Origin: Anaerolineaceae bacterium
Lineage (GTDB): Bacteria > Chloroflexota > Anaerolineae > Anaerolineales > Anaerolineaceae
DNA length: 64,000 nt
Direction of reading: 5' to 3'
Assembly: GCA_016927865.1 (NCBI GenBank)
Contig: JAFGLU010000101.1
Span: 35,775 to 99,774, forward strand
In this document: in pieces, positions 41,464 to 45,013 of the stretch
Numbering within the stretch: the stretch's first letter is position 1
Layout: each line of letters begins with the position of its first letter
The notes under the pieces: generated by a model
What the model saw: the letters and a program-made list of their open reading frames with translations, nothing else
The model's database searches: none
What the model was told of the DNA's origin: nothing
Translations under genes and position numbers: made by a program

Positions 41464-43254
41464 TTACCCCTTGCCCAACCTGCCCCGCTCTTCCTCAATG
41501 ATCGATGGATCCAGCTTTTTGAACAGCGGCAGGGGCTGCTGCAGAGCCTGCCCGGGCTGCAACTGGCTGGGAATCCAACGGATGCCTTCGGGCGCGGGGT
41601 TGTAGCGCAGGGCGGTGTGCTCTCCCAACGAATCTGTCACGGTCTCGGTATACTGCGTGCCGAAGAGCGGCTGCGTATAACCGAAGTAGCCGTGCAATTT
41701 TTCGCTGGTGTGCGGCAGGAACGGCGCCAGCAGGATGGCGAGCGAGTCGATGCAGCGCAGGGCCGTATAGACGCTGCGCGCCGCCGCAGCTCGGTCAACC
41801 TTGACCTCTTTCCACGGGGCGGTCTGGTCCAGGTAGCGGTTGACCTCGGAGGCCAGGCGCATAGCTTCGCCCAGGGCGCTGCGCAGGCGCACGGCTTCAA
41901 ACTCGGCGGCGACGGTTTCAAACCCGGTCTCCACCATCTTGATCATCTCCTCGTCCAGGCTGGTCAGCGGGCCGGGATCGGGTACCTTGCCTTCAAACTG
42001 CTTTACCGTGAAGGAAAGCACGCGGTTGGCCAGGTTGCCCCAGGTGGCCACCAGCTCGTCGTTGTTGCGCTTGTAGAAATCTTCCCAATCCCAATCGGCG
42101 TCGCGCGTTTCAGGCATGTTCGTCGTCAGGTAATAGCGCAGCGGGTCTGGATCATAGCGGGTGAGGAAATCGCGGCCCCACACAGCCCAGTTGCGGCTGC
42201 CGGAGATTTTTTCACCTTCCAGGTTCATGAACTCGTTGGCCGGCACGTCATAGGGCAGGGTCAACTTCTTGCCACTTTCGGCTGTGCCGAAGTGCTTGTT
42301 GAACTGCGTGCCCGTGCCGATGAGCTGGGCGGGCCAGATGACGGCATGGAAGGGGATGTTGTCTTTACCGATGAAATAGACGGTCTGCGCTTCCGGGTTC
42401 TCCCACCAATCGCGCCAGGCATCCGGCTGACCGGTGAGATTGGCCCATTCGATGGACGCCGAAAGGTAGCCGATGACGGCCTCGAACCACACATACAAGC
42501 GCTTGCTGTCGCGCCCTTCCAGCGGCAGGGGAATGCCCCAGTCCAGGTCGCGGGTGATGGGCCGCCCGCGCAGCCCGTTGGCCAAGATTTGCCCCAGCGA
42601 CTGGCGCAGCACGTTAGGCCGCCAGTACGACTCGCGTGTCTTGAGGAAGTCCACCACATCTTCCTGAAGCTTGCCCAAATCCAGGTAGTGATGCTCGGTC
42701 TCGCGCAGTTCGGGGGTCGAACCGTCGATTTTGGAGCGCGGCTCGAGCAGCAAGGCCGGGTCCAACAGGTTGCCGCACTTGTCGCACTGGTCAGAGCGCG
42801 CGCCGGCGAACCCGCAGATGTAGCAGGTGCCCTCCACGTAGCGGTCGGGCAGGAAGCGGTTTTGCGAAGGCGCGTACCACTGCTTTTCGGTTGCCGTGTA
42901 GAGAAAACCGTTTTCCAGGAGGGATAGGAAGATGGCCTGCGACACGCGGAAGTGATTGTCGGTGTGCGTGGAGGAGAACAGATCGTAGGTGATGCCGAGC
43001 TGCTGGTACAGATCCAGGAAGCCCTCATGGAAGCGCTTATAGATGGTTTCGGCGGAGACATTTTCGGCATCGGCCCGCACGGTGATGGGAGTGCCGTGCG
43101 CGTCGGAGCCAGAGACCATCAACACCCGGTTGCCCTTCAGGCGGTGGTAGCGCGCCGCGATATCAGCCGGCAGGTAAGAGCCGGTCAGGTTACCGACATG
43201 AATTTCGGCATTGGCGTAAGGCCAGGCTACTGCAATCAGGACGGGTTTGGTCAT
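41464..43254 (-). CDS. metG: Methionyl-tRNA synthetase
   Basis: 596 residues. Class I signatures: the HIGH-type motif AEIHVGNL (about residue 17) and the KMSKS-type EKISGSRN (about 337). The zinc knuckle has CYICG and CDKCGNLLD (about 142-165). The C-terminal anticodon-binding helices are complete; there is no extra tRNA-binding tail. It charges tRNA-Met. Start ATG 43254 has GAGGTGA nearby. Upstream on the same strand lie an intrinsic terminator (43286-43316) and a Met-rich leader peptide (43337-43411), which indicates regulation by ribosome-mediated attenuation. Confidence 0.95.
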   Translation of the reverse strand: MTKPVLIAVAWPYANAEIHVGNLTGSYLPADIAARYHRLKGNRVLMVSGSDAHGTPITVRADAENVSAETIYKRFHEGFLDLYQQLGITYDLFSSTHTDNHFRVSQAIFLSLLENGFLYTATEKQWYAPSQNRFLPDRYVEGTCYICGFAGARSDQCDKCGNLLDPALLLEPRSKIDGSTPELRETEHHYLDLGKLQEDVVDFLKTRESYWRPNVLRQSLGQILANGLRGRPITRDLDWGIPLPLEGRDSKRLYVWFEAVIGYLSASIEWANLTGQPDAWRDWWENPEAQTVYFIGKDNIPFHAVIWPAQLIGTGTQFNKHFGTAESGKKLTLPYDVPANEFMNLEGEKISGSRNWAVWGRDFLTRYDPDPLRYYLTTNMPETRDADWDWEDFYKRNNDELVATWGNLANRVLSFTVKQFEGKVPDPGPLTSLDEEMIKMVETGFETVAAEFEAVRLRSALGEAMRLASEVNRYLDQTAPWKEVKVDRAAAARSVYTALRCIDSLAILLAPFLPHTSEKLHGYFGYTQPLFGTQYTETVTDSLGEHTALRYNPAPEGIRWIPSQLQPGQALQQPLPLFKKLDPSIIEEERGRLGKG

Positions 43255-43285
43255 AGGTCACCTCGCGAGCATTCAATTTTCCAAC

Positions 43286-43316
43286 AAAAAACCCGGCAGG
43301 CGGGCCGCTTGCCGGG
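43286..43316 (-). terminator. Attenuator of metG
   Basis: Minus-strand CCCGGCA (43316-43310) pairs with TGCCGGG (43298-43292), followed by six T (43291-43286). It lies 31 bases before the metG ATG and 20 bases behind the leader stop. CAGCC at 43319-43315 could instead pair with GGCTG at 43346-43342 in the leader, opening the terminator. Confidence 0.85.
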
Positions 43317-43336
43317 CTGAAGGGTTTTGAGTTGGT

Positions 43337-43411
43337 TCAGGCAGCCAGACAGAACGGAAAAAGGATTTCTCCGCGCATCATCATGCTGCCCATCATCACG
43401 GTTGTTTTCAT
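43337..43411 (-). CDS. Met-rich leader peptide of metG
   Basis: 24 codons, ATG at 43411, TGA ending at 43337. The peptide starts MKTTVMMGSMMMRG: six Met in 12 residues, including three consecutive ATG codons. A short ORF this rich in the cognate amino acid, ahead of a terminator and an aminoacyl-tRNA synthetase gene, fits a trp-type attenuator. GGCAGC inside the Met run (43390-43385) is perfectly complementary to GCTGCC (43345-43340), giving the expected 1:2 pairing. The ribosome site is weak (AGG four bases upstream of the ATG). TATGCT/TATCAT upstream could be the -10. Confidence 0.8.
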   Translation of the reverse strand: MKTTVMMGSMMMRGEILFPFCLAA

Positions 43412-43537
43412 GCGCCTATGATAGCATAAAACCCATGCCGTGGGAAGATGCGAACAACCGCGTGTCTTCGTAGGGGCGCAGGGGAATACGCTAAACAAAC
43501 ATATCTACCACATCCCCCTGCGCCCTCTCTTCTCAAT

Positions 43538-45013
43538 TTAATGCAACGGCATCGCCGGAATCACCAATTCCTGCCCCAGCGTCAACTGCGCGGCCTTCTC
43601 CAGTCCATTGGCCCGCAAAATTTCCTCCGGCGGGGTGCGCCAGCGTGCCGCCACCAGCAGCAGCGTATCGCCCGGCTGCACCGTGTAGTTTGCGACTTCA
43701 CCGCTGATGTCCTTGGCGCGCCAGTTCCAGCGCAGCACCTCAAAGCCCCCATGACCGGTGCGCCCGTTGACGAAATCCGTGGACCACTCATTGAAGAAGT
43801 ATCCCGCCAATGGGTCGCCGGGATCGTACAACATGATGTGCTCGATGGAGTACCACTTGATGGGCCGGTAACGGATGATGTTACTGACGGCATACACACG
43901 CCCATCCTCATCTACATCCGTCACCACGATCACATGGTCAAACCCGTCGCCGCCGCTGTAGGTGTAGACAATATCGCCGGGATGCAGCGGGAAGGTGCTG
44001 AAATCAAACTTCCTCAGCGGCGCTTCGTTTTTCATCACCGTGTAGGTGTCCGGCGGGAACAGCGACCAGGGCCGCCCGTTTAGGGAAGGGCTGGGCAGCC
44101 AGAAGGACTTTGGCCCTTCCAACCACTCCCCATAGCCCAAGGGGAAGGCGCGCGCATCCGTGTTAATGGACCAGGTCAGCGGCCCGCACATCGTCACTGG
44201 TGATTCGGTCTTGCCGCCTTCCAGCCAGTCGATTTCGTAAGCGACTTCAAAGGCGTCCTCGGTCATCTCCGCCAGGTAAGTCTGCCCCGCGGAGGCCAGA
44301 TCGGGCTGCGACCAGTCCGCCGCTTCCAGCGTTCCTGCTTGCAGGTCCGGCGCGCGCCCGGTTTCCACCATCCAATCGCAGGGCGTCAGGCGCAGCCCCG
44401 GCAGCAGCGTTGAATCTCCCGCAGGCGCTTCGCCGGTCCAATAGGAGGATGCGTATTCTTCCCAGGCGGCGGGCGGGGGCTGGTTGAGTGATACCGCCAG
44501 GATATGCCTTTCGTTGCGATCGTCTTCGCGCAGGTAAGCCGCGAATCCGGCCACGTGCAAGGCGTTCAGGGCGTATTGCAAGCGGTACCCCTCGCGGATA
44601 TGGTTCACATCGATTGCCAGCACGCCCTCTTCCAGTGTCAGGTTGGTGCCCGCAGCGGCGTTCCAGGCGCGGGGCAGTTTGAGTGTAGAAAGCGGGATGG
44701 AAAAGCCCAGCAGCGAATCGGCATAAGCCAGCATTTGCTCTGTGGAAAGCCCGGCCTGCTCCTCGGCAGACAGGCACCCCGCGGGCTGGGCGAAAGTCGG
44801 TTCGGGAGTGGGTTCGATTTCAATGGTAGGCATTGGGGTGGGGACGGCAGTTTCGGTTGCGGTTGGCAGCGCGGTCTCGGTGGGTAGAACCGGCGTGGCG
44901 CTGGGCATGGGCGAAGATGGAAGCGCGGGCGTTGCCGTAGGCCCGGCACAGGCAGAAAGCAGCAAGACGGCTGCGCAGAGAGAGGAGATAAGTGGGCGGA
45001 GGTTTGCTTTCAT
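43538..45013 (-). CDS. Lipoprotein with C-terminal LysM domain
   Basis: 491 residues from ATG 45013 (MKANLRPLISSLCAAVLLLSAC), chosen because it opens a lipoprotein signal with lipobox LSAC. A Thr/Pro-rich linker follows (about 25-70). The middle has a region with HPGDIVYTYSGG and DHVIVVTDVDEDGRV, resembling CHAP/NlpC folds but lacking an obvious catalytic Cys. A LysM domain ends the protein (YTVQPGDTLLLVAARW to LTLGQELVIP). Likely cell-wall binding and surface anchored. Divergent from uvrC. Confidence 0.8.
   Translation of the reverse strand: MKANLRPLISSLCAAVLLLSACAGPTATPALPSSPMPSATPVLPTETALPTATETAVPTPMPTIEIEPTPEPTFAQPAGCLSAEEQAGLSTEQMLAYADSLLGFSIPLSTLKLPRAWNAAAGTNLTLEEGVLAIDVNHIREGYRLQYALNALHVAGFAAYLREDDRNERHILAVSLNQPPPAAWEEYASSYWTGEAPAGDSTLLPGLRLTPCDWMVETGRAPDLQAGTLEAADWSQPDLASAGQTYLAEMTEDAFEVAYEIDWLEGGKTESPVTMCGPLTWSINTDARAFPLGYGEWLEGPKSFWLPSPSLNGRPWSLFPPDTYTVMKNEAPLRKFDFSTFPLHPGDIVYTYSGGDGFDHVIVVTDVDEDGRVYAVSNIIRYRPIKWYSIEHIMLYDPGDPLAGYFFNEWSTDFVNGRTGHGGFEVLRWNWRAKDISGEVANYTVQPGDTLLLVAARWRTPPEEILRANGLEKAAQLTLGQELVIPAMPLH

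Follow-up and report, generated by a model that had tools for sequence, protein, structure and literature searches.

The window analysed here, a 64,000-nucleotide stretch that is part of a 147-contig Anaerolineaceae genome (G000), carries metG on its minus strand, preceded by a short ORF rich in Met codons and by a putative transcription terminator. This arrangement raises the question of what a Met-rich ORF does in front of a gene for a methionine--tRNA ligase. The preliminary description of the locus had proposed a trp-type attenuator, and we weigh this reading here against other explanations of the same sequence.

A Met-rich leader ORF and a predicted terminator precede metG

The metG product scores 496 bits against TIGR00398 (cut-off 336); the gene downstream of the leader thus charges the amino acid that is coded in the leader. 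The features of the locus are collected in Table 1. The ORF that had been described as having 24 codons, with six Met among the first 12, is borne out by the sequence: it opens with the ATG at 43411, its stop codon ends at 43337, and, besides the start, five internal Met lie within codons 1–12. A GTG at 43399–43397 is a possible alternative start. The hairpin and T6 run were likewise found where they had been placed, with 31 bases between TTTTTT and the metG ATG at 43254, and the hairpin GCCCGGCAAGCGGCCCGCCTGCCGGG begins 19 bases after the end of the leader ORF.

The ORF that precedes the leader is also on the minus strand and has its end at 43538. Between its end and the predicted leader promoter we noted an 11-base inverted repeat on the minus strand (GGGCGCAGGGG at 43525–43515 and CCCCTGCGCCC at 43484–43474, together spanning 43474–43525). 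It is possibly an end signal of the upstream gene, though it has no T-run.

Table 1. Features of the metG leader region (positions are those of the window).
Feature	Position	Strand	Basis
Leader ORF, MKTTVMMGSMMMRGEILFPFCLAA followed by stop	43411-43337	-	sequence; in-frame Met enrichment; predicted translation
Predicted leader promoter: -35-like TTCCCA (43446-43441), 17 nt, extended -10 TGC-TATCAT (TATCAT 43423-43418)	43418..43446	-	consensus scoring
Candidate regulatory Met codons: ATGATG (43396-43391) and ATGATGATG (43384-43376)	43376..43396	-	sequence; stalling inferred
Segment 1: GGGCAGC, partner GCTGCCT (43345-43339)	43385..43391	-	folds
Segment 2: CCGTTCTGTCTGGCTG (43357-43342) for 2:3; GCTGCCT (43345-43339) for 1:2	43339..43357	-	duplex and folds
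Segment 3: CAGCCCGGCAAGCGG, pairs with segment 2 and partly with segment 4	43305..43319	-	duplex and folds
Predicted intrinsic terminator (3:4): hairpin GCCCGGCAAGCGGCCCGCCTGCCGGG (43317-43292) and T6 (43291-43286)	43286..43317	-	sequence; -19.1 kcal/mol; predicted
metG, methionine--tRNA ligase, 596 aa	41464..43254	-	TIGR00398 above cut-off

Met-rich leaders recur before metG in related families

The metG gene is present in all 41 genomes of a first set of relatives and in 276 of the 301 genomes of a set covering the order. A first collection of metG upstreams, together with 100 further ones, gave 185 distinct sequences, in which a short ORF was called Met-rich if it had at least four internal Met in 12 residues. 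Such an ORF precedes metG in 56 of them. The arrangement spans the window's own family, f1 (4/49), and six more families of the order, namely f6 (2/2), f8 (8/10), f9 (4/18), f12 (16/24), f13 (4/10) and f14 (15/28); three of 36 records without a family label have it too. No Met-rich leader was seen in f2, f4, f5, f7, f11 and f15, each represented by one or two upstreams. All four members of the window's genus with a metG upstream have the leader, the contig of the fifth genome starting inside metG. Elsewhere in f1 the picture is different: 45 of the 49 upstreams fall below the Met threshold, L013 and L019 reach three Met with no terminator thereafter, and an Rfam search of 13 f1 metG loci without the leader yielded no match.

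One sequence by itself could be deceptive, and the gene upstream of the leader has the same orientation; the Met-rich ORF might therefore be a chance ORF ahead of the ordinary terminator of that gene. At the level of the group this is contradicted by three controls. In a recount, 53 of 211 distinct metG upstreams had a Met-rich ORF, compared to one of 211 when the reverse strand was read. Dinucleotide shuffles of the metG upstreams reached at least four internal Met in 12 residues in only 4 of 4220 cases. Finally, no Met-rich ORF was found upstream of other genes of the relatives (metK 0/29, pheS 0/26, ileS 0/30, thrS 0/29; 0/114 together). Moreover, in the part from the Met cluster to the stop codon, 58 leaders contain 291 ATG triplets in frame and five and four in the other two frames. 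The enrichment of Met codons is confined to one frame and, among the genes tested, particular to metG. The predicted promoter of the leader, which sits between the upstream gene and the leader, and the conservation of the terminator (see below) also speak against a chance ORF, which we regard as extremely improbable.

Cognate leaders of the same kind were sought at pheS, ileS and thrS, where only a few single ORFs (six) with four to five Phe, Ile or Thr in 12 residues came up and no consistent pattern emerged. A search for a second copy of the leader with the pattern ATGATGN{0,12}ATGATGATG, which other Met spacings escape, gave the metG leader as the single match in G000. In G003 the pattern matches twice, neither time before metG, and we read these matches as pieces of longer coding sequence.

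Outside the order, 6 of 65 class-level upstreams (L234–L258 and L379–L418) combine at least three Met in 12 residues with a separate terminator (L236, L238, L240, L380, L387 and L406). Four of the five upstreams of f24, a family of the same class (L243, L244, L245 and L247), have a shorter ORF with two internal Met, an RSGA end and the same terminator core; this is perhaps a reduced form of the device. The metG gene of L442 (G543), from another class of the same phylum, is preceded by the short ORF MRCTHRFDNMMHMTDPAWRAT together with a strong hairpin. It is the sole suggestive case among the 12 phylum-level upstreams examined, and as such a faint, isolated sign that the device may reach outside the class. 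Conversely, L133 (G050, f14) keeps the leader promoter and a terminator-like hairpin but shows no Met-rich ORF at the place where its sister species have theirs, perhaps as the result of decay of the leader or of a sequence error.

The predicted terminator and its alternative pairing partner are conserved

Of 59 leaders with four or more Met, 58 have a predicted terminator after the Met codons, as do 76 of the 81 with three or more. Under a stricter cut, a terminator no more than 200 nt from metG was found in 57 of the 58 upstreams with four or more Met, in 13 of 17 with three and in 38 of 111 with two or fewer. Both features whose loss among orthologous leaders would have spoken against the preliminary description, the Met codons and the terminator, are thus kept in relatives.

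For the window, the pairings proposed earlier were recovered in folds and duplex predictions: GGGCAGC with GCTGCCT (1:2), GGCTG with CAGCC (2:3) and GCCCGGC with GCCGGG (3:4). The 2:3 duplex reaches -19.3 kcal/mol (z -2.49, p 0.04). Across 74 of 76 leaders, two being left out because the stretch was too short, the stretch from the Met codons to the terminator pairs more strongly with the terminator 5' arm than shuffled versions of itself do (mean z -2.0, n=74), with p<=0.05 in 36 leaders and a duplex that is by itself non-significant in 38. The leaders are related, so that the tests are not independent; this applies to the p-values of the swap, ribosome-placement and start-site tests below as well. 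The core of the 5' arm differs among lineages, e.g. GGCTGTCC, GGCTGCC, GCCCGGC and GATGCTGGC. When arms and partners were swapped between leaders, the own pairing was stronger than the mean foreign one in 44 of 58 cases (mean -19.3 compared to -16.7 kcal/mol), which argues for co-variation of the arm and its partner. In many leaders the final codons of the ORF contain the partner of the 5' arm, and a ribosome that has reached the stop codon would then cover this partner.

These data also bear on whether the Met-rich ORF works through translation, by re-initiation at or coupling to metG, and not through attenuation. Leader ORFs may boost the translation of the next gene by re-initiation over a short distance, as described in a portion of PMC4833913. 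In the window, however, the leader stop lies 82 bases before metG with the terminator in between, and across leaders the terminator is conserved along with its alternative partner. We therefore consider a purely translational role very unlikely.

The leader is predicted to switch with the position of the ribosome

At equilibrium, the predicted fraction of terminator across leaders is 0.64–0.72 with a stalled ribosome, 0.80 without a ribosome and 0.92 with the ribosome at the stop codon; for the window leader with the ribosome at the last Met codon it is 0.75. The terminator thus usually wins at equilibrium even when the ribosome is stalled, and a switch would have to be kinetic, with 2:3 forming first. 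Since equilibrium folding gave no clear switch, we turned to RNA that ends before the 3' arm of the terminator. For a ribosome placed at the last Met codon of this RNA, the predicted probability that the 5' arm pairs upstream averages 0.76, compared to 0.56 when the spacers are shuffled, the own value being higher in 51 of 58 leaders. With the ribosome at the stop codon the value drops to 0.22. Values for the ribosome-free leader were recomputed from the predicted transcription start, for which 54 leaders were usable and four were not; earlier free values had begun at the longest ORF and in some rows thereby included untranscribed DNA.

In the window's genus the predicted behaviour is that of a four-segment switch. 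The free values from the predicted start are 0.12, 0.12, 0.28 and 0.22 for G000, G002, G004 and G001, respectively. They rise to 0.62, 0.76, 0.97 and 0.88 as the mean over stall positions, with 0.89–0.99 at the best stalled position, and are 0.01, 0.11, 0.07 and 0.22 with the ribosome at the stop codon. According to these predictions an untranslated leader hides segment 2, a stalled ribosome lets 2:3 form, and a ribosome at the stop codon frees segment 3 for 3:4. The trp-type logic of 1:2, 2:3 and 3:4 that had been proposed for the window is therefore predicted in all four genus leaders. The 1:2 helix, however, does not extend to the whole group, and most leaders outside the genus have no clear counterpart. 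The free value has a mean of 0.60 across the 54 leaders whose promoter could be used, and 39 of them reach 0.5 or more, so that 1:2 helices are not a general feature. In the f13 leaders, in L236 and in L106, the stalled and the stop states hardly differ.

Sequence and comparison establish that a Met-rich ORF and a predicted terminator lie before metG, that both recur at this place in related families, and that the end of the ORF is predicted to pair with the terminator 5' arm better than shuffles do. In our judgement the metG leader is very probably a transcription attenuator that acts through the ribosome and would increase metG expression during a shortage of charged tRNA-Met. Recurrent Met-rich leaders, the near-constant terminator (58/59) and the antiterminator pairing support the trp-type reading of the preliminary description, in refined form. 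With ample Met-tRNA, the ribosome would reach the stop codon and cover segment 2, the 3:4 terminator would form, and metG expression would stay low. With scarce Met-tRNA, the ribosome would stall on the Met codons and cover segment 1; 2:3 would then form ahead of the synthesis of segment 4, and RNA polymerase would enter metG. Without translation, leaders of the window's genus would fold into 1:2 and 3:4 and remain off. A metG gene controlled by stalling in this manner would let the supply of MetRS follow the demand for its product.

The start of the leader and the initiator tRNA

In an alignment of the four genus members TATGCTAT is invariant. The -35 element of the window (TTCCCA) is poor, and its -10 element ends 6 nt before the ATG (TATCAT-AGGCGC-ATG). 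Overall, 36 of 58 leaders have an exact TTGACA-N17-TANNNT directly upstream of the Met cluster, and in 31 of the 54 leaders with a scored promoter and start the predicted -10 ends 6–9 nt before the first in-frame start. Such a distance predicts leaderless or nearly leaderless transcripts, and the window transcript may be leaderless. The short spacing is not a constant trait, since in the three genus relatives of the window 20–22 nt separate the -10 from the start. A leaderless start of a mycobacterial cysteine leader ORF is reportedly the subject, to go by the title, of Canestrari et al. 2020; for the metG leader it is a matter of prediction.

A leader ORF whose start codon is at the 5' end of the RNA, or close to it, needs charged initiator tRNA, and it might gate on initiation as much as on elongation. 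The terminator would then form only if a ribosome both starts and finishes the ORF, and failure to start as well as stalling would signal methionine shortage. Besides the short distance between -10 and start in 31 of 54 leaders and in the window itself, the predicted upstream pairing of the ribosome-free 5' arm in 39 of 54 leaders fits this idea. The genus of the window does not: there segment 2 is predicted to be hidden as long as the leader is untranslated, and three of its four members have the longer spacing. Moreover, the mean without a ribosome, 0.60, differs little from the shuffled-spacer value of 0.56, the shuffles having been measured with the upstream part masked. We see gating on initiation as a possibility of rather low probability.

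A wider version holds that a Met attenuator with an RNA starting at its own AUG, and gating on both initiator and elongator tRNA-Met, is ancestral to the order and probably to the class. Uncharged initiator tRNA would block the start and uncharged elongator tRNA would stall the ribosome. In most lineages, those without 1:2, either failure would keep the antiterminator and leave metG on, which would be turned off only after a ribosome has both started and finished the leader. We put this forward as a speculative proposal that is probably not correct in full. For the attenuator reading itself, a low-Met state may also reduce initiation on the leader, which in the window's genus would oppose induction.

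Other RNA regulators in the same lineage

A T-box or a SAM riboswitch could also control metG, the Met-rich ORF being incidental. A T-box precedes ileS in the genome of the window and a SAM riboswitch precedes metK, and the part of PMC3771891 at hand gives a predicted T-box on metS of B. cereus. However, an Rfam search of the whole window at gathering score matched no family, and the in-frame Met codons far exceed chance. The T-box model (RF00230), which matches ileS of this genome, had no covariance-model match in the window and was rejected for metG; so was the SAM riboswitch model (RF00162), again with no match in the window, which finds its target before metK in seven of seven loci searched, including L266 of G000 and six relatives. 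We thus give riboswitch control of metG hardly any weight.

In the loci searched from the window's genome and its relatives, RF00230 matches three of six ileS (L323 in G000, L328 in G002 and L321 in G007), two of four pheS (L299 in G035 and L294 in G036) and none of four thrS loci. From the ileS T-box and the metK SAM riboswitch it follows that the lineage uses different RNA devices for Ile-tRNA, for SAM and, if the metG leader is an attenuator, for Met-tRNA.

Discussion

Like the classical attenuators (trp, his, leu, thr, ilv, pheA and pheST), the metG leader combines a short ORF rich in cognate codons, a predicted intrinsic terminator and a cognate gene downstream with a predicted alternative antiterminator that uses the end of the ORF. 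It differs from them in its methionine codons, its Chloroflexota host and the lack of a clear 1:2 helix in most relatives. The attenuator specificities given in the available text of PMC3766115 are His, Leu, Thr, Trp, Ile/Val and Phe. Other aminoacyl-tRNA synthetase genes are likewise under a leader peptide of their own amino acid, one of them in a group that otherwise uses T-boxes; these cases concern other amino acids and other phyla. For Actinobacteria, attenuators are described at trpS and leuS and no conserved structures before methionine operons, as far as the sections of PMC1262725 at hand go, and His leaders are known from Firmicutes (partial text of PMC2965389). Candidate Cys uORFs of mycobacteria (extract of PMC4633059) resemble the metG leader in being rich in the sensed residue, which is cysteine in their case.

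Methionine-tRNA charging is sensed in S. aureus by a T-box specific for the initiator tRNA, which controls metICFE and, like the attenuator proposed here, ends transcription early (portion of PMC3771891). In contrast to the metG leader, that T-box binds initiator tRNA directly, serves a biosynthesis operon and has no leader peptide. Our literature searches, to which most subscription journals were not open, retrieved neither a Met-codon leader peptide or a metG leader-peptide attenuator nor any leader-peptide attenuation in Chloroflexota. The comparison supports the view that the metG leader would be a Met-specific leader-peptide attenuator with structural variants, in a phylum for which these searches gave no case.

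If this is true, methionine joins the amino acids that are sensed through leader-peptide attenuation, in genomes where T-boxes and SAM riboswitches serve adjacent tasks. Since the same synthetase charges the initiator and the elongator tRNA, a sensor based on stalling at Met codons faces a problem at its own start that sensors for Trp or His do not have. The natural variants with and without the predicted 1:2 helix would make this start problem directly testable.
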